From a virus, in IMG/VR virus record IMGVR_UViG_3300050120_000121, positions 35,905 to 99,904 of that record: DNA of 64,000 bases; one strand, given 5' to 3'. The first letter of the stretch is position 1, and every line of letters begins with the position of its first letter. The notes under the pieces were generated by a model. The model saw nothing but the letters and a program-made list of their open reading frames with translations, was not told the DNA's origin and searched no databases. Below are positions 3,787 through 62,929 of this stretch, one piece after another. The translations under genes and the position numbers were made by a program.

Positions 3787-4674
3787 ATGCCAGTCACGAA
3801 TAGTGCGAACTTCAAGCAAATTCGAGCCAGCGAACGGTTCACCGTGCATCCCTCGACTGGAAACGTATTCTTCGTTGACTCGGTGACGGGTTCGGCGACT
3901 GGCGGATATCACCCCGATGGTCCGGCCGCAACTCTCACGCAAGCACTGGCACTCTGTACCGCGAACAATAACGACACGATCTTCGTGTTTCCGACTCATG
4001 CGGAAGCGGTTGTCGGTGCGGCTGGAATTGCGTTCAACAAAGCTGGCGTCACTGTTGTGGGGATGGGAAGCGGTCGCGGACGACCAACGATTACCCTGTC
4101 GACATCAACCGCGGCACAAATCACGATCACGGCCGCGAACACGACGATTCAGAATTGCGTGTTTGACCTGACGGGAATTGACGCCATCGTCGCGGGAATC
4201 GCCATTACTGCCGCTGATGTCGCAATTCGCGGATGTGAATTCATCATGCAAGCCGCTGCTGCATCTCCAGCATTGGGGATTCTGACAGCCGCGACAGCCG
4301 CGAGGCTCGTGATTGATTCGAATCGGTTCTTGGGACTCGCGACCACGACAGGCGGAACTCTCGCCGCATGCGTTCAGCACGAAGTGGGCGTCGACTTCCA
4401 AATCACAAACAACTATTTCCGTGGCAAGATGACGCAAGCGGTCCTCAACGCCACAACGATTCTTGGCGGATTGATCGCGAATAACAAATTCCACATCTAT
4501 ACCGGAACTAAGGGAATCTCTCTTGCGGCCGGTACGACTGGTTCGGGATTTGATAATCGACTCTCGGTTCCATCTGGAACAACGCCTGTCGTCGGTGCCG
4601 GATTCACATGGGCGTCGAATAATTATTCAACGGAAGCTCTGGCTGTTGGAACCCCAACCGCTGCGGCATTCTGA
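3787..4674 (+). CDS. Right-handed beta-helix virion protein
   Basis: The 295 residues show a repeated short-strand pattern typical of parallel beta-helix proteins (TTIQNCVFDLTG, VAIRGCEFIM, LVIDSNRFLG, FQITNNYFRG, GLIANNKFHI), with the Asn/Cys ladder of pectate-lyase-like folds. GGAG precedes the ATG. It lies in the head region rather than the tail-tip region, so a head fibre or decoration spike is plausible. Carbohydrate binding or cleavage cannot be judged, because no catalytic residues are evident. Confidence 0.7.
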   Translation: MPVTNSANFKQIRASERFTVHPSTGNVFFVDSVTGSATGGYHPDGPAATLTQALALCTANNNDTIFVFPTHAEAVVGAAGIAFNKAGVTVVGMGSGRGRPTITLSTSTAAQITITAANTTIQNCVFDLTGIDAIVAGIAITAADVAIRGCEFIMQAAAASPALGILTAATAARLVIDSNRFLGLATTTGGTLAACVQHEVGVDFQITNNYFRGKMTQAVLNATTILGGLIANNKFHIYTGTKGISLAAGTTGSGFDNRLSVPSGTTPVVGAGFTWASNNYSTEALAVGTPTAAAF

Positions 4675-4699
4675 TCGTCGACACGAATCGAAAAACAAA

Positions 4700-4735
4700 A
4701 GCCAGTGGAACGCATCGTCGGTTCACTGGCTCTTT
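4700..4735 (+). terminator. Hairpin after the beta-helix gene
   Basis: AGCCAGTGGAAC pairs with GTTCACTGGCT with a single bulged base, then CTTT follows. It lies 25 bases after the stop codon. It is a likely intrinsic terminator or attenuator inside the late operon. Confidence 0.6.
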
Positions 4736-4762
4736 CGCAAGGCGGTAGAGAAAGGCGAACGG

Positions 4763-5422
4763 ATGGCACTTTCAACCGTTCCATCTTGTATGGCGCAAGC
4801 CGGAATGGTGTCCGTCACCGACGCACAGTCGGCACAGATGCAAGCGTTCATCAATGGAATTTCGGATCTCGTTTATCATCAGCTTCATCGCAATTTTGAC
4901 GTCCGAACCTATACCGAATTTTACAGCGGCGATGGTTCGCCATTCATTCTGTTGCGACAGTATCCGGTGATTTCAGTTACGTCGATTTGCGAAGATCCTG
5001 AAGGTAACTTTGGGCAGACAGCCGGTGGATTTGATTCATCGTTGAATCTTGTTCAAGGGGTCGACTGGGTTCTGATGGCTGGTCAGAACGGAATCGGTTC
5101 ATCTGGAATGATTCGGCGGATCAAAGGTGCGTGGTGGGCACGTCACACGCGAGAACTTGGCATCGTTTCGAATTTGCCACCATTGCCGAGCGGAAACATC
5201 AAGATTGTTTATACGGCCGGATACTCTCCGATTCCGTACGCGATTCAAATGGCCGTCAACTCTGCGGTGATGCGAGCAATGGCGACAGCAGCGGCCGGCG
5301 GTGCGGCTCAGTCGATGAGCTATGAAGATGCGACGATGACGTATGTGTCACCAGCGGATTTGGCGATGATCTTCGGCACGATTGAAAGCACATTGGGCAG
5401 TTATAAGGCGATTGTGATCTGA
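4763..5422 (+). CDS. Head-tail connector (adaptor-like) protein
   Basis: A 219-residue protein whose layout fits gp6/gp15-type connectors. A helical N-terminus (AQMQAFINGISDLVYHQLHR) leads into a strand-rich middle with the typical YPVISVTSICED phrase, and late helices follow. ATG 4763 follows AAAGGCGAACGG; the upstream in-frame codons overlap the preceding gene and a hairpin. It probably joins the portal ring to the tail. The stop overlaps the next start. Confidence 0.65.
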   Translation: MALSTVPSCMAQAGMVSVTDAQSAQMQAFINGISDLVYHQLHRNFDVRTYTEFYSGDGSPFILLRQYPVISVTSICEDPEGNFGQTAGGFDSSLNLVQGVDWVLMAGQNGIGSSGMIRRIKGAWWARHTRELGIVSNLPPLPSGNIKIVYTAGYSPIPYAIQMAVNSAVMRAMATAAAGGAAQSMSYEDATMTYVSPADLAMIFGTIESTLGSYKAIVI

Positions 5423-6048
5423 TGATGACCAGGGCCATCGCAGCGGGAATCATGGGGGCTTTAATCCCTGAACGCGGTCCGGCTGTTGTCACGCTGAACT
5501 ATGGTAAATCAGCTTGTCCGCAGTATGGTACGATTTCTGGCAGTGGATCGACGATTACCGGGGTCGGGACCAAGTTCGTCACTGGCAATCCGCAGATTCA
5601 AGTCGGAACTAAGATCGTCGTCAACAACTCAGCCGGAAGTCTGAACTATCTCGACGGCGGCGGGGTGAATTCGGTCGTCAGCGGCACACTGCTGAACGTG
5701 ACGGCGATTGCATCGGATACATCCCTAACGGTTTCACAGACGGGATTGGCGTTTGCTATGAAATCGTTCTTCACGGATTTGCGGACTGTGGTGAACATCA
5801 ACGGAGCATGGAAAAAGCCAGTCTCGGGCAAACTTCAGCGATATGGCATGATGAATCTGCAAGGGGACGAGACGCTGCTGCACATACCCGACAACGAACT
5901 GAACGCGGCGGGAAACGGTTACGAAATCAAGACGGACGACACGATTGTGTTCGCAGGCGACACGTTCCAAGTCACATCGTCAGGCACAACATTGAAAACA
6001 GTTTTGACCGATTGGGTTTGTGTGTGCCGAAAGGTGTTGGCGAATTGA
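5422..6048 (+). CDS. Hypothetical head-tail joining protein
   Basis: A 208-residue protein overlapping the connector stop by one base. The middle is a Gly/Ser/Thr-rich beta region (GTISGSGSTITGVGTKFV ... ASDTSLTV) like appendage domains of virion proteins. The C-terminus (GYEIKTDDTIVFAGDTFQV) looks like a compact beta-barrel. A head-closure role is inferred from its place between the connector and the tail-completion genes. Confidence 0.55.
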   Translation: MMTRAIAAGIMGALIPERGPAVVTLNYGKSACPQYGTISGSGSTITGVGTKFVTGNPQIQVGTKIVVNNSAGSLNYLDGGGVNSVVSGTLLNVTAIASDTSLTVSQTGLAFAMKSFFTDLRTVVNINGAWKKPVSGKLQRYGMMNLQGDETLLHIPDNELNAAGNGYEIKTDDTIVFAGDTFQVTSSGTTLKTVLTDWVCVCRKVLAN

Positions 6049-17531: not shown

Positions 17532-18815
17532 TCACTTACCGGCGACCTCTCCTGTCTCGGCGTACTTGAATGGATCTTGGTACGTCACGCCGCCCCTGAT
17601 CGAGTCAGGGTTCACCGAATGCGTCGAGACGGCACCGGTTCGCGTAAATAGCGCGAGGATGGCCTTGTCCCCGCGTTCGTATCCATTCGCAGACGGATCG
17701 CTCCAAACTCCGTATTCGGGACATGACGACGTAGGGTAACTCGACGGATTCGACCAATACTGCCGATCGCGATCCGCGTCTTTCTGATCTGCAATGTAAA
17801 ACTCGATCAATCCCTTCTGCGCCGCTGGTCCCATGATGGCGCCTGATGGCGAAAACAGAATGTCCATCTGCGTGGAGTAATCAAATCCGCTCGGGTCTGT
17901 TGAGAGTGGCGAAAAGATTTTCCACGATGACGGCAGTTTTGATCCGCGATTGCTAGCGAGCGTCGCTGCATTGACCTGTTCGATTGTGTTGACGTAGGAG
18001 GCTGTTCCGGGGCTTCCGATGACTCCCGACGAACGGTCCAAATGAATGACAGAACCCTTTGGGAGTTGAATCATATCGGAACCCGGCAAAACACTGTTCG
18101 GCAGAATGAGTTGATATGTCATCGGTCCGCCGTTCATGAATGCGTTGATTTCTTGCGGATTGTTGTTCGTGGGCGGATTTGGATAGGCTGTCGTCAGTCG
18201 CAATCGCGGAGGATACGTTGGAGTCACGCCAGCAGCGGTTGCATTGGCCAGAAGATCAACAGTCACCGTATACCACAGTCCTGTCGGATCGTTCGGAATC
18301 TTGATCTTTGCTCCGTTGGTCAACAATCCTTCATTCATGAGGTCGACCCATGCGGTAGGGATTGCATCAGGATTCGCAGGATCACCGTCAAAACCTCGCA
18401 CGATCCATGCCAGTGGATTTGCCACTCCACCGACCCATTCATCAGATATCCCATTGTTGTCAACATCAATCCGCTCCAGCCGAATCTGACCTTGTGTCCA
18501 TGCCGGCGTCTGCTGAATATAAATCATGCTTGACACAGTTCGGCTTGTCTGACCGACAGTTGACGAATCCAGCAAGAATCGCAAACCTCGCGGGGCTCTG
18601 GCGTAAATCGCGCGATCACGCGCACCAGCAAGAGCCGACTGAAGCTGACGAGCCGCCCCGCGAACCTTGTCGTTATTGACCGACAGCTTCACGGCCGACA
18701 TCGTGAGTGTCGCCAGGATGAGCATAATAACGACGACGATCAGCAGTTCGACCAGAGTGAATCCAACACGAGTTTTCCGCACGATTTGTCTCCTCGAAAG
18801 TGAATGTTTGAACAC
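17532..18815 (-). CDS. Pseudopilin-like protein with prepilin cleavage/methylation signal
   Basis: The N-terminus is a textbook class III prepilin signal: a basic leader, then VGFTLVELLIVVVIML with Gly-Phe at the cleavage point and Glu at mature position 5, followed by a long hydrophobic helix. The next part (AARQLQSALAGARDRAIYARAPRGLRF) matches GspH/FimT-type minor pseudopilins. At 427 residues it is much longer than GspH. It is the last gene of the minus-strand operon. Such genes are bacterial, so this looks like acquired host cargo. Export through a host type II or type IV pilus system is inferred. Confidence 0.82.
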   Translation of the reverse strand: MFKHSLSRRQIVRKTRVGFTLVELLIVVVIMLILATLTMSAVKLSVNNDKVRGAARQLQSALAGARDRAIYARAPRGLRFLLDSSTVGQTSRTVSSMIYIQQTPAWTQGQIRLERIDVDNNGISDEWVGGVANPLAWIVRGFDGDPANPDAIPTAWVDLMNEGLLTNGAKIKIPNDPTGLWYTVTVDLLANATAAGVTPTYPPRLRLTTAYPNPPTNNNPQEINAFMNGGPMTYQLILPNSVLPGSDMIQLPKGSVIHLDRSSGVIGSPGTASYVNTIEQVNAATLASNRGSKLPSSWKIFSPLSTDPSGFDYSTQMDILFSPSGAIMGPAAQKGLIEFYIADQKDADRDRQYWSNPSSYPTSSCPEYGVWSDPSANGYERGDKAILALFTRTGAVSTHSVNPDSIRGGVTYQDPFKYAETGEVAGK

Positions 18816-22736: not shown

Positions 22737-24485
22737 ATGAGCCACCATTCTCGTTCCATCGGATGCCTGATGCCCACCCATCTCGTCAACCTCGATGCGC
22801 TCGTGCAACGCCAGGATTTTCGACACGGTTCGGACGAACCACCGCAACGCAACCGATTGAGCAGCGAAATCAAAATCGGGGAACTGGAAAGCAATTTCTT
22901 CCATCTTCTCAAAAAGCCGGATTTCCAACGAACGACGAACAACTGGTCATCCAATCGGATCATGGAATTCGTCAAGAGTTTCGTTGATGGAGATTTGATC
23001 CCATCCATCATCATGTGGTGGTCGCAAGACACAGGAACTGCATTCGTCATCGACGGGGCGCACCGGATGAGTGCTCTCGCGGCATGGGTTCATGATGATT
23101 ACGGAGACGGGGCCATTTCGCGAGCGTTCTGGAAATCGAACATTCCCGCGGCTCAGAAGAAACTCGCCGAAGCAACGAAGTTGCTGATTGATCGGGAGAT
23201 CGGGCAGTATCAGAAGCTGAAGCGTCTTGTTCAGGATAATCCCGCGGGAAGCGACCCTGTCATGCTGGCACGGGCTAAGAATATGGCGACATTCAAGATC
23301 GACCTGCAATGGGTCGAAGGGAGCGCGGAAACCGCGGAGCGATCTTTCTTCCGAATCAATTGCAGTGCCAGCATCATCGACCGCACCGAACTGGAAATCA
23401 TCAAGTCACGTCGGAAGCCAAATGCGATTGCGACCCGAGCATTAATGAATGCAGGCACGGGACACCGCTATTGGTCAGGATTCTCCGATGAAGTTGGCGA
23501 CGAGATTGAAAAACTGTCGAAGGAAATCGCGGTCAGCCTGTTCCAGCCGATCTTGGAAACGCCCGTAAAGACAATGGATTTGCCCATCGCGGGACAAGGG
23601 TATTCATCGAGTGCGTTCCAAGTCGTTTTCGATCTGGTGAATCAAGTCAATGGGGTCGCATCGTCGAAGCGAGCCCCGCGGATGCCGAAGGAAAGGAAAG
23701 TCGATCATTCAGTCGTTGCAGAGGATTCGGAGGAAGACGAAGTTCCCGCGGATGAGATCGCCGCGGACAATAGTCTTCCCGACGACAAGGACGGCAAGCA
23801 AACAATCGCCTATCTGAATGCCGTCAAGCGTGCCGCCCTATTGGTGTCGGGAAGCAAGGGTGGATCTCTCGGGCTTCATCCGGTGGTATATTACTACGGA
23901 AAGACTGGGCGATTCCAATCATCCGCATTGCTGTCGACGATCAAGTTTGTGGAGGAACTGAAAAAGGAAAACCGCCTCGCTGAATTTACGCAGCATCGCA
24001 ATGATTTCGAGGAATACCTCGTTCATCACCGCCATTTCGTGAACAGTCTCGTTCACACGTATGGAAGCCGATACCGGTCGGTCGACGCATTGGTGACGAT
24101 GTACCGAATCATTCTCGCCCAAGTGATGGAAGGAAACGTGGATCACGACAAGATCACGCAAAAGCTGATCGGCGATTCGGCGCTGAGTTCATTAAGAGCG
24201 GCCATCGTTCCGAAGAAATCCCGCGGGAACAAGGAAAGTTCAAAACTCTCCGCCGCGGATCGGAGTGCCGCATTTCTCGCGACGGCAATCAATGGTGCCC
24301 CGCGGTGTTCAATTTGCAAAGCACGACTGCATTTGAGGGGTGTCAGCATCGACCACGAAAAGCGCAGGCAAGACGGCGGCACGAACGATGTCAGCAATTT
24401 GAATCCGACGCATGCCTACTGCAATTCTGGATTCAAGGAAAAGAAACACCGCGAAACGAAGAAAAAAGCCGCGGACAAGTCGTAA
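22737..24485 (+). CDS. DUF262-like protein with C-terminal HNH nuclease, transposon cargo; candidate DNA-targeting defence protein
   Basis: The 582 residues (571 from an alternative ATG at 22770) begin with a DUF262/ParB-like region: PDFQRTTNNWSSNRIMEFV, LIPSIIMWW and VIDGAHRMSALAAW, equivalent to the DGQQR motif. A charged hinge (EDSEEDEVPADE) follows, then a C-terminal HNH (CSICKARLHL, VSIDHEKRRQDGG, NLNPTHAYCN). DUF262 proteins with nuclease partners form GmrSD/BrxU-type type IV restriction enzymes. Here one chain holds both parts. The gene is dense in CCGCGG sites, unlike the phage. A defence role is an inference. Confidence 0.75.
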   Translation: MSHHSRSIGCLMPTHLVNLDALVQRQDFRHGSDEPPQRNRLSSEIKIGELESNFFHLLKKPDFQRTTNNWSSNRIMEFVKSFVDGDLIPSIIMWWSQDTGTAFVIDGAHRMSALAAWVHDDYGDGAISRAFWKSNIPAAQKKLAEATKLLIDREIGQYQKLKRLVQDNPAGSDPVMLARAKNMATFKIDLQWVEGSAETAERSFFRINCSASIIDRTELEIIKSRRKPNAIATRALMNAGTGHRYWSGFSDEVGDEIEKLSKEIAVSLFQPILETPVKTMDLPIAGQGYSSSAFQVVFDLVNQVNGVASSKRAPRMPKERKVDHSVVAEDSEEDEVPADEIAADNSLPDDKDGKQTIAYLNAVKRAALLVSGSKGGSLGLHPVVYYYGKTGRFQSSALLSTIKFVEELKKENRLAEFTQHRNDFEEYLVHHRHFVNSLVHTYGSRYRSVDALVTMYRIILAQVMEGNVDHDKITQKLIGDSALSSLRAAIVPKKSRGNKESSKLSAADRSAAFLATAINGAPRCSICKARLHLRGVSIDHEKRRQDGGTNDVSNLNPTHAYCNSGFKEKKHRETKKKAADKS

Positions 24486-26732: not shown

Positions 26733-28118
26733 ATGCCGCGAAAAGACTTCAAGGCTGTGCGTGACACTTTTGCGAACGATAGCGGACTTCCGTTCGGCCG
26801 CATTCTCACCCGCGATCATGTCGTGGGCGTGCTCGAATCCGAAGGACACAAATACCGTCAGCGAGTGTTCTGCCCGTTGGTCACGCTTTGGGCGTGGCTA
26901 AGCCAATCTCTCAGTCAGGACAAATCATTGAATGAGGCGGTCAGTCGCATTCTGGCACATCGCGTTGCAACCGGATTGCCAGCATGCTCAGCCTCGTCGT
27001 CAAGTTACACTGACGCCCGCATTCGATTTCCGCTGCCAGTGTTGATTCGACTTGCAAAAGAGATCGGGCGAAAGGTTCACAACTCTGCCGACGAGGCATG
27101 GCATTGGCGCGGACGAGAAGTGTTCCTTGCCGATGGCACCACTCTTTCGATGCCTGACACTGAGAAAAACCAGTTGAAGTACCCTCAAGTCAAAACTGTC
27201 GCCGCGGGACTTGGGTTTCCGATTATGCGGTCGGTTGCATTAATCTCCTTGTCGACGGGTGCTGTCATGGATTTTTCATGTGGTCCATTCGAAGGGAAAG
27301 GCACGGGTGAGGGTGCTCTGTTGCGACAGACGCTCGATACGATGAATCGCGGTGATATTCTTGTCGCAGATCGGTATTACCCAAGCTATCGCACGTTGTC
27401 CGCCTTACTGCCCCGCGGAATCGACCTCGTGTCGATCAGTAACGCGTCACGAATCGTCGACTTCACGGAAGGATTTCAACTGGGCGACAACGATCACATC
27501 GTAACGTGGTATAAGCCGACGCGACCCGCGGGGATCGGCGACGAAGAATTCGCGGCGTTTCCAGACACGATCTGCGTCCGGGAGTTTCTTATAGATGTCG
27601 AGTCTCGCGACGGAGGGACCGAACAGGCAATCGTTGTCAGTACGTTGACCGATCCAACAATTCCGCAGGAAGAGATTTCGAATCTGTACTGGAAACGATG
27701 GAATTGTGAACTGGACTTGAGGTCAATCAAATCCAGCATGCATATGGATATTCTCCGCGGGAAAACGCCAGAAATGGTGCAAAAGGAAATCTATGCCCAC
27801 TTGTTGGCTTACAATCTGATCCGCGGGACGATGACGGAATCGGCCAAGAGAACGGGACTCATTCCGCGGCAACTGAGTGTAAAGGGCTGCATGCAAGCCG
27901 TCGAATCATTCACTCCTGCAATGATGGCGACATCCGCGGGAGATGTTCTGTATGATGCCCTGCTGACGACCGTTTCGGCTCATCGCGTGGGAAATCGGCC
28001 GGGACGATTGGAACCGCGGGTTAAGAAACGTCGTGATCCGTGGGCGAAATCGAAGATGAAAAAACCCCGAAACGAGTACCGGAGACGTTTGGCGAAAGAC
28101 GCGAAAACCTTATCCTAG
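26733..28118 (+). CDS. IS4-family transposase
   Basis: A 461-residue DDE transposase. Catalytic motifs are LADGTTL (first Asp), ILVADRYYPSY (second Asp) and the YWKRWNCELDLRSIK segment with the Y..RW..E signature of IS4 proteins. The C-terminus is Arg/Lys-rich. The gene ends inside the right terminal inverted repeat. Frequent CCGCGG words link it to the DUF262-HNH gene at the other end. It appears intact, so the element may still be mobile. Confidence 0.92.
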   Translation: MPRKDFKAVRDTFANDSGLPFGRILTRDHVVGVLESEGHKYRQRVFCPLVTLWAWLSQSLSQDKSLNEAVSRILAHRVATGLPACSASSSSYTDARIRFPLPVLIRLAKEIGRKVHNSADEAWHWRGREVFLADGTTLSMPDTEKNQLKYPQVKTVAAGLGFPIMRSVALISLSTGAVMDFSCGPFEGKGTGEGALLRQTLDTMNRGDILVADRYYPSYRTLSALLPRGIDLVSISNASRIVDFTEGFQLGDNDHIVTWYKPTRPAGIGDEEFAAFPDTICVREFLIDVESRDGGTEQAIVVSTLTDPTIPQEEISNLYWKRWNCELDLRSIKSSMHMDILRGKTPEMVQKEIYAHLLAYNLIRGTMTESAKRTGLIPRQLSVKGCMQAVESFTPAMMATSAGDVLYDALLTTVSAHRVGNRPGRLEPRVKKRRDPWAKSKMKKPRNEYRRRLAKDAKTLS

Positions 28119-35578: not shown

Positions 35579-35946
35579 TGGACACGGAACGCTTACAACG
35601 GCGAGTCGACGGCCGAACTCAAGCGAAAGCGATTTTCGACCTGTTGACGCTCGATCATCCCGACAAGATCGCAGCGTTTTTCGACGAACTCGATTCGCGA
35701 TTTCGACCGAAAACCGAAGTTGCGAAACAGATTGAACGTCGCAAGATTCGCGAACTGTCGGTCATCACAATTGACTTTGGGGCACATTCTGGCAAACAGA
35801 TGGACGAAATCCCACGGGAATACCTTTCGTGGCTTCTGGAGTCATCTGAGCAGACTTGCAGCGATATCCGCGAATATCTGGAAGCGACTGCCGAACGTGG
35901 CTCACCAGACGACGTAGGCGACTTTGAGATCGAGGACACGGAATGA
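35578..35946 (+). CDS. DUF3820-type small protein
   Basis: 122 residues. ITIDFGAHSGKQMDEIPREY followed by LSWLLES is the DUF3820 pattern (FG.H.GK....P..YL.WL), also present at the end of the ExoX-like protein two genes upstream. It may share a DNA or partner-binding function with that exonuclease. ATG 35578 overlaps the previous stop. Confidence 0.65.
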   Translation: MDTERLQRRVDGRTQAKAIFDLLTLDHPDKIAAFFDELDSRFRPKTEVAKQIERRKIRELSVITIDFGAHSGKQMDEIPREYLSWLLESSEQTCSDIREYLEATAERGSPDDVGDFEIEDTE

Positions 35947-42280: not shown

Positions 42281-43501
42281 TCAGCAGGATAGAAGGTTCG
42301 CCTCCAGTCCGTGTTCGTACATTTCGTGAATCAGAACCGACAGATTGTGGCAGAGAAGTTTGCATAACACTTCGTTCCGCATGGCCACGTCAGTCTTGCT
42401 GCGAACCGCATCGCCGAACTTCCGCTTGACGGCTGAAAAGACGGATTCGACATTGCTTCGACGATGGTACTTTTCCAGAAATCTCTCGCGGTTCAATGAA
42501 AAGAAATGGAACGCTTTTTGGAACAACCCACCGCTGCCGCCAGTCGTTCCAGAACGAAATGTGATGTAGGCTTCGGCACCATGACTCGCGACCGATTGGA
42601 AGTTGTTTTCGGAGGCATATTGCTTGTCGCCGGAAACCTGCCTCATCGTGAAGTTCTTCGCCGTCTGGGCGAGTAGTTCGGGCATGATTGGGGAATCGTT
42701 GGAATTCTTGTCGTAGATCGCGACGGCGGTCACAATGTGCGTTTTGGTCCCGCTGCAAATGTGGGCTTTCGTCCAAGTGTGTTCCGTGCAGAACTTTCCA
42801 TATTTCACGTCGAACCATCGCGTGAACTTGCTGGACGTGAAGCCCGACGAATCGCAGGCGAACTCATCTTCGATTTCTCTCAGGGGCAACGACGATCGGA
42901 CAATCAGATCGGTCAGGATTGGCGTCAACGCAGGATTTTCGAGATATCGGCAAATCGAGTTGTAGGCCATCGTTTTCGAGACGAACCCCTTCGCTTTGGC
43001 TTCTTCCATGTCAACCATGAATCGTCGGGTCGATACCGTCGAGAAGATCTTGAAGACACAGGCAAATAGTGCGTCGCTGATGGGAACGGGCGGACGACCT
43101 TTCATGTTGTGAATCGGTTCCGTCACACCTTGACAGAGATCGCGAAGCAATACCTGAAAATGCCGTTTTTCGTTGGTTTGTGCCTTGTTGTAACTGGGCC
43201 AGTCTTGTGGGAACGTCGGCTTTTTCACTGTTTCAGTGATAGTCACGGTTCGCGTCGTGGTGGTTTCCGTTTCGGTCACGGTAGTTTCTCGACGAATGAC
43301 GATTTCGACCGCGTACAAATGTTTGCACGTTTTGCCGGTCGCTTCGAAATCAGGGCACGAACAGAACGGGGCTTGGGGATCGGGAACGCAGGTGTATTTC
43401 CCGCTTCCGCTCTGTGAAGGAACGAGCCACGCTTTCCCCTTCTGAATCAATTTGGCTGTTGCAGCGATCAGGATTCCGCGTTGTTGACGTTGTTCGCACA
43501 T
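42281..43501 (-). CDS. DDE transposase with N-terminal SWIM zinc finger
   Basis: 406 residues. CSCPDFEATGKTCKHLYAVE is a SWIM zinc finger (CxC...CxH). Thr-rich spacer, then a DDE region: DSSGFTSSKF (first Asp), SGDKQYAS (second Asp) and RSNVESVFSAVKRKFGDAV (Glu). The element ends are described in the transposon entry. It has none of the CCGCGG words abundant in the IS4-type element. It looks intact. Confidence 0.85.
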   Translation of the reverse strand: MCEQRQQRGILIAATAKLIQKGKAWLVPSQSGSGKYTCVPDPQAPFCSCPDFEATGKTCKHLYAVEIVIRRETTVTETETTTTRTVTITETVKKPTFPQDWPSYNKAQTNEKRHFQVLLRDLCQGVTEPIHNMKGRPPVPISDALFACVFKIFSTVSTRRFMVDMEEAKAKGFVSKTMAYNSICRYLENPALTPILTDLIVRSSLPLREIEDEFACDSSGFTSSKFTRWFDVKYGKFCTEHTWTKAHICSGTKTHIVTAVAIYDKNSNDSPIMPELLAQTAKNFTMRQVSGDKQYASENNFQSVASHGAEAYITFRSGTTGGSGGLFQKAFHFFSLNRERFLEKYHRRSNVESVFSAVKRKFGDAVRSKTDVAMRNEVLCKLLCHNLSVLIHEMYEHGLEANLLSC

Positions 43502-58509: not shown

Positions 58510-58585
58510 GGCGAGATAGAGAAGCCCGGTCCATCTCGTGAGCCTCATAAGCTCAAGATCGGTGGTTCAAATCCACCTCTCGCCC
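58510..58585 (+). tRNA. tRNA-Met(CAT)
   Basis: Full cloverleaf: acceptor GGCGAGA/TCTCGCC (7 of 7), D-stem GAGA/TCTC, anticodon stem TGAGC/GCTCA with loop CTCATAA (anticodon CAT) and T-arm GGTGG-TTCAAAT-CCACC. No CCA is encoded. Elongator Met is the simplest reading; a CAT anticodon modified to lysidine would make it Ile. It is the only tRNA I find. Confidence 0.92.
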
Positions 58586-58619
58586 CTGAATCACAAATCC
58601 CTTCTAGTCAGGACGAAAC

Positions 58620-58948: not shown

Positions 58949-59437
58949 ATGAGCAAAACACTATGGGTCGGGGTTGGATGTCTGGTTGTATTTGTCGCGT
59001 CTCTTGGCATGTGCCTACATTTGGCGTCGATTCCGCAAGTCATGTCTGCCACGGATGGACCGCCTCCAACAATCACTTGGACATCCCTTTGGGGAATGAT
59101 CGCATCTGGTGCGTTTGTTCCGATGGTATTGGCGTTCTGGAAGGAACATCAGTCACAGATTGATTCCGCGACAACGGCGATTCAGGGAGTGGTCACAACC
59201 GTTACCGGAAATGCGAAGTCGTCAACGGCAATTGAAGCGGTCTCTTCCGCTCTGGCATACGCTGCGAACAAGACCGACGCGAACGCGAAAGCACGGTTTG
59301 TAAACGCTCAGTTGGCAGAAATTCGCGACATCATGGGCAATGATTCAGCGATTGCCAATCCGCTCAATGCTCTCGTGATTGCCATCACGAACGCACAATT
59401 CCCAGTTGATCCTCTCAAGATTTCGGTTCTCAAGTAA
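58949..59437 (+). CDS. Membrane protein with two hydrophobic segments, holin candidate
   Basis: 162 residues. TM-like segments near residues 5-30 (LWVGVGCLVVFVASLGMCLH) and 45-65 (SLWGMIASGAFVPMVLAFW), then a soluble helical tail. AAGGGACGCG precedes the ATG. Position before secreted peptidases suggests a lysis or envelope role. Holin is only a candidate call. Confidence 0.5.
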   Translation: MSKTLWVGVGCLVVFVASLGMCLHLASIPQVMSATDGPPPTITWTSLWGMIASGAFVPMVLAFWKEHQSQIDSATTAIQGVVTTVTGNAKSSTAIEAVSSALAYAANKTDANAKARFVNAQLAEIRDIMGNDSAIANPLNALVIAITNAQFPVDPLKISVLK

Positions 59438-59447
59438 AGGTCCGCAC

Positions 59448-59906
59448 ATGCGAAAATGGATGTTCGGACTTGTTTGCGTTCTGGTCATCGGATGCACTGT
59501 CAGCGAACGCGGGATTACGTTCAATTGGGGCGGCAAGTCTGGTCCCGTTTCTCCGGTCAATCCCGTTCAGCCGATCACAACACATGAGTTTCGGTGTCTT
59601 TTCATCCGAGACAATGCCACAGATTCAAAGGTCACATCAACTCAGCGGGCAATGTTGACGGGCGGAAACACTCGCAAGTTTCTGGAAGAGAACTGCGTCA
59701 AGGTTGGCGACGATCCAGGACATCGGTACGTCGACAAAACGACTGAGCTTTCAGGGATATGGAAAGACATGGTCGCGAAATATCCCCCAACGGGTTATCC
59801 GTGGGTGATTCTGACAAACGGTGCGGATGGCGAAGGATTTCTGTTGCCAAACGACTTCGAGCCGGAATTCACAGCGAAAATGAACAAATACGCGGGGGTC
59901 AAATGA
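59448..59906 (+). CDS. Lipoprotein with thioredoxin-like tail, lysis region
   Basis: 152 residues from the ATG at 59448. Signal MRKWMFGLVCVLVIGC ends in a lipobox. The mature part (FRCLFIRDNATDSKVTSTQR, YPWVILTNGADGEGFLLPND) has a weak thioredoxin-fold look. Lipoproteins near endopeptidases in phages can be spanins or exclusion factors. Function unproven. Confidence 0.6.
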   Translation: MRKWMFGLVCVLVIGCTVSERGITFNWGGKSGPVSPVNPVQPITTHEFRCLFIRDNATDSKVTSTQRAMLTGGNTRKFLEENCVKVGDDPGHRYVDKTTELSGIWKDMVAKYPPTGYPWVILTNGADGEGFLLPNDFEPEFTAKMNKYAGVK

Positions 59907-60691
59907 GCGATCTATTTGTCATCAACGATACGAACGCCGATCAGCATGCCAGAGATACATCCCATCTGTGCGGCTGCTTGCCAAGACGTGAAGTGTTTGG
60001 AGCATTGCCGTTCGCAAGTCCCGCTCCGATTGATTTAATCGCTTGGGAGGACATGCCGGACATGATTTCGGATCAAGCGAAAAATAAGAATTCACTTGTC
60101 GATATCTGGCAAGACTCGAAGATCGGAATTTTGAATCAGGGCCAACTCAATTATTGCTGGAGTTTCAGCGGTGTAATGGCATTGATGCTTCAGAGGGAGG
60201 TTGACGGGCTTCCGTTCGTTCATCTGTCGCCAAGCTCGGTCGCTGGGCCTGTGGTCAACTATCAGAACTGCGGATGGTATATTGAAGACTGCTTAAAGCG
60301 AATGTGTTCGGACGGGGCGAGTTCAATCGAATTCGTTCCAGAAACGACATGCAATGCGGCCGACTTCAAGCCGGGTTGGAAAGAATCCGCGTCAATGAAC
60401 AAGGTCACAATGTGGCAGGACGTTGGATCAAATGTTCAGGCACAGAACACGAAGTTATTGAGGAATCAGCCGCTGGCCGTTGCCCATTCGTGGTGGTCTC
60501 ATGCAATCGTTCACCTGAGATTGACGGACGACAATCCGAAACTGCCCGCGAATAACCCGCTTCGATATGGTCGCGACCCGTTAAATTCATGGGGCGCTGG
60601 GTACGGAAAGAATGGACTATTCCATCTGACGGGACAGCATTCAATCGCCGATCAATCGTATGGGATTCTTGAAGTCAAATTTGCGGCGTGA
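59903..60691 (+). CDS. Papain-like cysteine peptidase
   Basis: 262 residues. The C1-type triad is visible: NQGQLNYCWSFSGVMALM with the nucleophile Cys near residue 85, WWSHAIVHLRL with His near 200, and NSWGAGYGKNGLF with Asn near 228. The Gln of the oxyanion hole is in NQGQ. The start overlaps the lipoprotein stop (ATGA). No signal peptide is seen. Next to holin-like and secreted genes it may cleave a cell-envelope protein at lysis or entry. Confidence 0.82.
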   Translation: MSDLFVINDTNADQHARDTSHLCGCLPRREVFGALPFASPAPIDLIAWEDMPDMISDQAKNKNSLVDIWQDSKIGILNQGQLNYCWSFSGVMALMLQREVDGLPFVHLSPSSVAGPVVNYQNCGWYIEDCLKRMCSDGASSIEFVPETTCNAADFKPGWKESASMNKVTMWQDVGSNVQAQNTKLLRNQPLAVAHSWWSHAIVHLRLTDDNPKLPANNPLRYGRDPLNSWGAGYGKNGLFHLTGQHSIADQSYGILEVKFAA

Positions 60692-60721
60692 GTCGTAGTC
60701 TCTTTCCACGGAAGGAAAATC

Positions 60722-60811
60722 ATGCAATCCCTCTCAAACTGGCTCAATGCAATCCATGTGATTGGGGGTCTCATCGCTTTCGCCGCAGAGGTGTTGGCGG
60801 TGACACAGTGA
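60722..60811 (+). CDS. 29-residue single-pass membrane peptide
   Basis: GGAAGGAAAATC gives a strong start. WLNAIHVIGGLIAFAAEVLA is one hydrophobic helix. The stop overlaps the GTG of the trypsin-like gene. A tiny holin or antiholin is possible. Confidence 0.55.
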   Translation: MQSLSNWLNAIHVIGGLIAFAAEVLAVTQ

Positions 60812-62568
60812 CAAATGACAATTCCCGTATTCGACGCTTATGGCTCAACGTCGGCCTATCCGTGGCCATCTGTGGTGATTTGGGTTTCGCGGGAGAAAAA
60901 GGTTTCCAAGTCCCGAAGCCGTTCTCCGCTCCCAAGACATTTCAATCACCGAAAGGTTTTGAGATCCCGCGACCGGAGAAGTCCGAACCTGTACCGAAAC
61001 CGATTCGCGAACCTGAACCCGTCAAACCGCTCAAACTGGAATTGCTCGTTCCGGTCTCATCGGCTCCGCTTTCGTCACCGATAGACGCTTCTGTGATACT
61101 TGGCGTCAACGGGAAAGACTCCAAGGGGCATGCGATTCAGGTTTTCGGATCAGGGACCGTGATTCTGTCGCATGACGGCAAATCGACGATCCTGACGTGT
61201 GCTCACAATCTGCGAGGGATTTCGCAACCGTCCATCTCGGTCACAAGCCAAACGAAACTCTACTCGGGAACCGTTCAGAGAATCGACGATCCGAATGACT
61301 TGGCGTTGATCGAGGTCAATGGCGAACTTCCCTACGTAGAACTGGCGGAATCAATCCCGAAGGTTGGCGACGTTCTGACTAGCATTGGATCGTCAGCGTC
61401 AAAGCTGGAAGAGCGATCTCACAAACTGACAGCCATCGACAAATACGACGCTCCGAAGAATTTCGAGACGGACGGCAAACAGGAACCCGGTCGATCTGGC
61501 GGCGGATTATTCTTCAACGGGGAACTCTGCGGAGTGATTCAGGGTCGCGTAGGAACGTCTCAACTGCCGATCTATGTCTCAGCCGATCCGATTCGCAATC
61601 TGCTCGCCCGTCAAGCGTACGGCGATTCACAGCAGACGGAAATCGAACTTTGGATGGCTCCATTTCGATGTCCACCATGTGACGTGTTGAATGCGTCGGT
61701 TGGCCAAGGGAATGAGCGAGTCAAAGTCGTCGGCCGGTACATCGCTCCGAAACACTGGAATCCGAGCGGCACATTTCCGTTTGTTCGAATCAAGGATTCA
61801 AAGGACCAATGGCATCTGTACCACGGCTTGCGGAATCTCGCGGATGTCGAAGGACAGATTGCGAAACTGAATCCGCCAGTTGTGTCGGCTCGATATGAAG
61901 GCGAAACACCATCGGGAGTGACGCTGAACGGGTCGGCAATCATCCAAACGGGATTCGATCGACTGACGGAATTCTTCGGCGACGGTTCTGAATTCGCGAT
62001 TGATTGGACGCGGATCGGCGGGAAAGACGCATTGCCCGCGAATGGCAAGTACACGAAAAAAGACATCTTCGGCAGTTCTGGCAGCATTTCGATTGGCGTG
62101 AAGTCAACGAAGAAACTCCCGGTGAACGCGATTCGATTCGGGTATCGTTTCGGACCAGGATCGGACGGTCGCGAAAAGCTGTTTCTGAAAACGGAAGATG
62201 AAATTGAATGCGAGATTCCTGAAACTGGCATCGTCGGTTCAGGTCCGCAAAAAGTCGGCATCATCCCGATATTCGTGGCTTACGAAGTCATTTCGCTGAT
62301 CTATGACGTCTACGCGTTGTTTAATCCGACAGTGGACGTGTTTCTCGGCGAGTCCGTATCCGTGAAGTCGAAACTCAGCCAGAACGTGTTGACAGTCACG
62401 ATGATCGACCCAATGCCGAGACTTCGGCTGAACTGGTCATTCTTTTTCGGATTCGTGAAATACGAATATTCCAGGGACTTCACGGGGCTGATCCTATCGC
62501 CGCAGAAGGGAACAATTCAATTCCATCATTCGCATTTTTACAGAGACGTTTCGTTGCCAATCCATTAA
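60808..62568 (+). CDS. Secreted trypsin-like serine protease
   Basis: 586 residues from the GTG at 60808, which overlaps the small peptide gene. It has an N-terminal signal (LWLNVGLSVAICGDLGFAGE) and a Pro-rich linker. The protease domain has TCAHN (His near residue 133), DPNDLALIEV (Asp near 164) and PGRSGGGLF (Ser near 230). A C-terminal beta-rich region may bind a surface. Export suggests action outside the cytoplasm, on a host surface protein or at lysis. Confidence 0.8.
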   Translation: MTNDNSRIRRLWLNVGLSVAICGDLGFAGEKGFQVPKPFSAPKTFQSPKGFEIPRPEKSEPVPKPIREPEPVKPLKLELLVPVSSAPLSSPIDASVILGVNGKDSKGHAIQVFGSGTVILSHDGKSTILTCAHNLRGISQPSISVTSQTKLYSGTVQRIDDPNDLALIEVNGELPYVELAESIPKVGDVLTSIGSSASKLEERSHKLTAIDKYDAPKNFETDGKQEPGRSGGGLFFNGELCGVIQGRVGTSQLPIYVSADPIRNLLARQAYGDSQQTEIELWMAPFRCPPCDVLNASVGQGNERVKVVGRYIAPKHWNPSGTFPFVRIKDSKDQWHLYHGLRNLADVEGQIAKLNPPVVSARYEGETPSGVTLNGSAIIQTGFDRLTEFFGDGSEFAIDWTRIGGKDALPANGKYTKKDIFGSSGSISIGVKSTKKLPVNAIRFGYRFGPGSDGREKLFLKTEDEIECEIPETGIVGSGPQKVGIIPIFVAYEVISLIYDVYALFNPTVDVFLGESVSVKSKLSQNVLTVTMIDPMPRLRLNWSFFFGFVKYEYSRDFTGLILSPQKGTIQFHHSHFYRDVSLPIH

Positions 62569-62578
62569 GGGGTTAATC

Positions 62579-62929
62579 ATGAATCGAAGATCGTTTGTCG
62601 GTTTGTTTGCATCGGCAGTTGCGTTGATTCCATTCGCAGGGTTCGCGAGCACTCCGGAGCGGATGAAGCTCACGGTAATTCACGAGCCACAAAACAAGTG
62701 GTATCGGGTCGTCGGATCGTTCGAGGCGAAGAAAAAGTTCCACTTTGCGTGGCAGACGAAGTTGTGGCCGGAATGGCAGCAGCACATTCGGCCACTGGAA
62801 GAGAGAACTGCGTTTCTGTGGGACATGATGCAAGGTCACGACGGCCTGTTCTCAACACCGAATCGACAGGTCGTCGAGGCGATCAAACACGCGATCTCAA
62901 ATTGCGGTTGCGTCGTGACTGTCCTCTAA
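62579..62929 (+). CDS. Secreted protein with twin-arginine-like signal
   Basis: 116 residues. MNRRSFVGLFASAVALIPFA resembles a Tat signal (RRSF) with an FAS cleavage region. Mature part is Trp/Lys-rich. Its closeness to the protease suggests a shared envelope role. No family. Confidence 0.55.
   Translation: MNRRSFVGLFASAVALIPFAGFASTPERMKLTVIHEPQNKWYRVVGSFEAKKKFHFAWQTKLWPEWQQHIRPLEERTAFLWDMMQGHDGLFSTPNRQVVEAIKHAISNCGCVVTVL

Follow-up and report, generated by a model that had tools for sequence, protein, structure and literature searches.

A conserved cassette of a papain-like protease and thioredoxin-fold proteins in phages of Planctomycetota, with a putative role in opening the host envelope

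As a rule, tailed phages are expected to get through the peptidoglycan with muralytic enzymes, as in the holin-endolysin-spanin system of lambda (S-R-Rz), whose genes sit just before the terminase. Papain-fold enzymes often cut peptidoglycan, and those of the NlpC/P60 and CHAP families serve other phages as endolysins. The cassette that we describe here resembles S-R-Rz in its place upstream of the terminase where one is detectable, and in having a signal-less cytoplasmic enzyme, small transmembrane (TM) proteins, an anchored lipoprotein and overlapping genes. It differs in that a C1 protease replaces the muralytic enzyme, none of which was detected, and in its thioredoxin-fold proteins, sometimes present as a trypsin–thioredoxin fusion. 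The C1 protease shares with the C1A papains and cathepsins (PF00112) the Gln-Cys-His-Asn set, an NSWG motif and a profile match in the PDB. It departs from them in a region of ∼70 amino acids N-terminal to the active-site stretch, in the signatures NQGxxxYCW and WWxH, and in its occurrence in phages and planctomycete genomes (in prophages where examined). With the NlpC/P60 and CHAP muralytic enzymes it has a papain-like fold in common; however, it matched neither family, and its sequence kin are the C1A cathepsins. The trypsin-like protease of the cassette is similar to HtrA/DegS-class proteases (PF13365) in fold, catalytic triad and export but has no PDZ domain match and carries a CxPC thioredoxin-like segment after the protease domain. 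Our literature search for such a protease–thioredoxin cassette found no paper.

The window, by which we mean the whole stretch of 64,000 nucleotides that was analyzed, extends from base 35905 to base 99904 of a virus record that is 99,904 bases long, and its right edge coincides with the contig end. The left 36 kb of the record (read as L001 and L002) contains tail, terminase and head genes. We looked for a terminal repeat in the 99.9-kb record and found none, so the record may be incomplete. All gene calls were simple ORF choices. The cassette spans 58949-62568 and, with its flanking features, is laid out as follows (window coordinates).

58510-58586: tRNA-Met gene, just upstream of the cassette
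58949..59437, + strand: protein of 162 aa, predicted to have two TM segments, in a holin-like place in the cassette
59448..59906, + strand: lipoprotein with the lipobox LVIGC and a predicted thioredoxin-like fold, without CxxC (A2 alignment, AlphaFold2 model and fold search)
59903..60691, + strand: C1 papain-like cysteine protease of 262 aa, without a signal peptide
60688..62568, + strand: exported trypsin-like (HtrA-class) protease, followed by a thioredoxin-like segment with CPPC and, at about aa 390-626, by a C-terminal region
62579..62929, + strand: 116-aa protein with an exported-looking N-terminus, directly after the cassette; its membership is uncertain

A remote homologue of the two-TM protein occupies the same place in L031 and L034 (tblastn E=6e-7 and 2e-6, respectively). 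Family searches gave no call above cut-off for this protein and no family for the 116-aa protein, and known holin families had no match above threshold among the cassette proteins. The 116-aa protein is one of three small proteins in the record with an exported-looking, Tat-like N-terminus (window 62579-62929, L001 13182-13556 and L002 4969-5466), which start with MNRRSF, MNLTRRSFF and MNRRTF, respectively.

Several other genes of the record drew our attention. One protein (window 17532-18815, − strand), possibly host-derived, bears at its N-terminus a prepilin-type methylation motif (N_methyl), and a 582-aa GmrSD-N plus HNH protein (window 22737-24485, + strand) is possibly a phage-carried defense or restriction gene. 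ORFs at window 29009 and 45017 share the starting peptide VCETLRLLTLAKDENM, the mark of a duplication of the leader or of the upstream region. (SAARSAAW)n and (RVRVTVMV)n, both simple repeats, make up part of two ORFs of L002 (9159-9914 and 11910-13169). The record also holds two different DDE transposases (26733-28118, + strand, and 42281-43501, − strand), of which the second contains a SWIM zinc finger. Relatives of the first occur in Sulfuritalea, Kuenenia, Salinisphaera and Endozoicomonas records, a mixture of phyla for which we discarded the transposase as a clue to the host.

When searched as a single sequence, the window papain matched Pfam Peptidase_C1 at E=0.0023, below the curated cut-off, and ananain in the PDB at E=6.5e-4, with no match in PHROG. 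Another family member matched Peptidase_C1 at 7.1e-8, and a profile of 14 relatives matched cathepsin K at 1e-17. Based on this profile match, we assign the protein by sequence as a true member of peptidase family C1. An alignment of 33 diverse members with 22-41% identity to the window papain (A6) contains the Gln-Cys-His-Asn catalytic set in papain order, at these positions.

60137..60139, + strand: Gln79, oxyanion-hole residue, invariant in A6
60155..60157, + strand: Cys85, nucleophile, invariant in A6
60500..60502, + strand: His200, catalytic, invariant in A6
60584..60586, + strand: Asn228, catalytic, conserved in at least 90% of A6

In a related locus, L041, a second and diverged papain-like gene (4669-5484, 271 aa) apparently lies upstream of the main one, and each of the two is preceded by a short anchored protein, suggestive of a duplication of the pair.

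The window trypsin matched Trypsin_2 (PF13365) at E=1.1e-12 (49.4 bits against a cut-off of 27.6), and by fold its trypsin half is of the HtrA/DegP, HtrA/DegS class (E about 2e-11 to 6e-10). We aligned it with five other trypsin-like cassette proteins (A7, six sequences, three of them from planctomycete genomes) and located the following residues, numbered from 60688.

61204..61206, + strand: His173 of the trypsin triad, invariant in A7
61297-61299, + strand: Asp204 of the trypsin triad, invariant in A7
61495-61497, + strand: Ser270 of the trypsin triad, invariant in A7
61669..61680, + strand: C328-P-P-C331, thioredoxin-type redox motif, C-x-P-C invariant in the six trypsin fusions

In A7, C288-x-P290-C291 is invariant together with a later proline, P324, in the cis-Pro place, as for a CxxC thioredoxin. 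In the L083 fusion, the trypsin and thioredoxin domains each exceed their own Pfam cut-off. The window CPPC segment alone had no Pfam match, and its thioredoxin assignment draws on the motif, the alignment and a low-confidence structure model (pLDDT 55 for the window trypsin), from which we assigned no fold to the C-terminal region. The N-terminus, RRLWLNVGLSVAICGDLGFAG, is signal-peptide-like, and the true start of the gene is probably the GTG at 60808. Judged by these features, the window protein and its five relatives are exported trypsin–CxxC thioredoxin fusions. The earlier note on this DNA had described two adjoining proteases with intact catalytic residues, the trypsin-like one exported; the alignments of both families bear out the first statement, and the predicted signal peptide agrees with the second. 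The CPPC segment had been overlooked. The neighbors named there, a tiny membrane peptide and lipoproteins, are to be replaced by the 162-aa two-TM protein (58949-59437) and a lipoprotein (59448-59906).

The lipoprotein gene overlaps the papain gene by 4 bp (59903-59906). Its AlphaFold2 model (pLDDT 86) has the thioredoxin order of elements, beta-alpha-beta-alpha-beta-beta-alpha, and the PDB matches listed in the fold search were almost all thioredoxin-like. These matches are weak by E-value, the best being E=0.012 with a probability of 0.97, hence they point to a fold class and not to a close relative. Thus we predict a thioredoxin fold for this partner. A CxxC is absent from the window partner and is not conserved in A2, unlike in a redox-active thioredoxin.

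Single-sequence searches of IMG/VR for papain relatives and tblastn against GenBank phages returned nothing. A DNA pattern for NQGxxxYCW yielded 19 relatives in IMG/VR, and a profile yielded 94 stretches, of which we kept 80. Of these, 79 loci were analyzable; the counts below are loci and not independent lineages, with some near-duplicates among the viral loci, and most papain records are fragments. The computed gene order is a small TM protein, the anchored thioredoxin-fold partner, the papain, and a small TM or CxxC protein. An HMM detected the partner, as a lipoprotein or membrane-anchored protein, in 62 of the 79 loci, directly upstream of the papain in 54, and the exact 4-bp overlap recurs in 35 of the 53 relatives whose partner occupies position −1. 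Small TM proteins, putatively hole-forming, lie near the papain in 67 loci, and an exported CxxC thioredoxin is encoded one to three genes downstream in about 20. Thioredoxin was the commonest Pfam domain among 113 cassette neighbors, three of which matched Trypsin_2. A trypsin or trypsin–thioredoxin is a feature of only a minority of cassettes (the window, L031/L034, L060, L069, L083, L094/L095, L107 and genomes G238, G590 and G757). A terminase was recognizable in the flanks of 24 of the 79 loci and lay downstream in 21 of the 24, mostly within 0.3-2.9 kb. This conservation rules out the two proteases as chance neighbors, and we regard a conserved cassette as well supported by sequence comparison.

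The earlier note had seen no muramidase or amidase, and this now extends to the whole 99.9-kb record, where Pfam scans of 91 ORFs detected no muramidase, amidase, CHAP, NlpC/P60, SLT or M15_4 domain and hence no classical endolysin, transglycosylases included. An endolysin just beyond the right edge had been suggested as a check; that edge is the contig end, and none was detected elsewhere in the record or in four relatives with terminal repeats. Across 37 papain records, the families Phage_lysozyme, Amidase_2, Amidase_3, SLT, NLPC_P60, Peptidase_M15_4 and CHAP gave no match, as opposed to matches in two of six records without papain (Fisher p about 0.017, calculated by hand with a small and unmatched control). 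Direct terminal repeats were present in 4 of 30 papain records checked, implying that these four are probably complete. For three of these (G005, and G029 pooled with G031), Pfam scans contained capsid, portal, terminase or replication genes plus Peptidase_C1 and no muralytic family among the 25 families listed, below which 6 and 4 additional families ranked. The absence of known endolysins from papain phages therefore appears well supported, although a divergent muralytic enzyme could have escaped detection, which counts against lysis by proteases. Given the place of the genes, the cytoplasmic enzyme, the small TM proteins, the anchored lipoprotein and the missing muralytic enzymes, we read the locus as a lysis-type cassette, and given its content, we consider it just about probable that it opens the envelope of planctomycetes through proteolysis combined with disulfide chemistry.

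The same absence of muralytic domains, together with a papain in the endolysin place and without a signal peptide, would also fit a disguised endolysin that cuts the stem or cross-link peptides of planctomycete peptidoglycan, so that the target is still murein; the hosts do possess peptidoglycan (PMC4432640). However, the papain profile is near the C1A cathepsins (1e-17) with a C1-type Gln-Cys-His-Asn set, NlpC/P60 and CHAP are unmatched, and the additional trypsin and thioredoxin parts suggest protein substrates. We consider this explanation unlikely.

Other phages are known to have lysins in their virions, and in many loci the papain is close to tail-fiber genes. It might accordingly be borne by the virion or injected, opening the envelope locally at entry or, once injected, processing proteins of the virion or the host. 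That the papain is constantly accompanied by small TM proteins, exported thioredoxins and an anchored partner is a misfit for an injected protein, and the place just before the terminase is lysis-like, making such a role rather improbable.

To place the phages among hosts, we searched 392 genomes from the phylum to which a MAG titled Kuenenia (L117, genome G043) belongs and obtained one full-length papain, in G238. SBP_bac_10/DUF1559 copies number 49 in G238 and 59 in G043 and are absent from 14 control genomes. On the strength of these marker copy numbers, we took the G238/G043 group, and with it the class of G238, to be Planctomycetota. An improved papain profile then matched 11 of 398 genomes of G238's class (E<1e-54), ten nearly full-length and one, in G535, covering model positions 65-261, compared with 0 of 399 genomes of a control phylum, to which a genome titled Sulfuritalea belongs. 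A motif-pattern scan of 85k genomes found no papain relative; this pattern is insensitive, since the profile gave 11 in 398. The 11 genome members rule out a strictly viral family without prophages. Cassettes in G238, G590 and G757 hold partner, papain and trypsin–thioredoxin, and the three of the 11 that we examined (G238, G590 and G458) lie in prophage surroundings, with portal, terminase, capsid, tape measure and head-maturation protease families in a pooled scan. We regard Planctomycetota as the well-supported host of the papain phages.

Such temperate relatives (the prophages, and an integrase in the pooled G029 and G031 scan) and the export of trypsin and thioredoxins are compatible with envelope remodeling without lysis or superinfection exclusion, in which exported proteases would strip host surface proteins or serve the lysogen. 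Moreover, one cultured deep-sea planctomycete releases a phage without lysis (PMC10945688). Nevertheless, the papain itself has no export signal, and elsewhere in the papain records we detected no known lysis gene, leaving this explanation quite improbable. Phages also use proteases in maturation, and the head genes are encoded on the same strand, but a role of the papain in head or tail morphogenesis, the maturation factor that the earlier note had allowed for, is disfavored as the main reading and very improbable, because relatives have a separate head-maturation protease (an S49-like protease read between portal and capsid in L026, and the family found in the examined prophages) and because the partners are exported, the trypsin with a signal peptide.

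Under the preferred reading of a lysis cassette that acts on proteins and disulfides, the papain, without a signal peptide, would build up in the cytoplasm like classical endolysins until the small two-TM protein makes holes that release it, and it would then cut load-bearing or anchoring envelope proteins. The anchored thioredoxin-fold partner, without CxxC, may be a docking, folding or inhibiting factor for the papain. Exported CxxC thioredoxins, whether separate proteins or, as in the window, part of a fusion with the HtrA-type trypsin, may act on envelope disulfides or, alternatively, hold the papain cysteine reduced. An SDS-resistant proteinaceous wall has been described for planctomycetes (PMC3422733), and thioredoxin action could enable the proteases to cut this layer. 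We infer the lytic outcome, the hole formation, the substrates and the role of the thioredoxins from gene content and place. The main counterweight is that planctomycetes are reported to have lysozyme-sensitive peptidoglycan sacculi (PMC4432640), so that an agent against peptidoglycan is still expected; either the protein layer is breached in addition, or the papain cleaves the peptides of peptidoglycan, or a further muralytic enzyme is present. Protein-directed attack on the envelope, which had been raised as a possibility from the window, has survived every test that we ran, with the cassette present in dozens of diverse phage records. More tentatively, and as a possibility rather than an expectation, lysis of this kind by tailed phages, through proteolysis and disulfide chemistry and not by cutting peptidoglycan, may be widespread in Planctomycetota phages.

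If true, this would add protease-based lysins to those known and would offer a direct means of finding out which envelope polymer bears the load in planctomycetes, whose wall composition has long been disputed. The papain profile, in turn, is a practical marker for the discovery of planctomycete phages.
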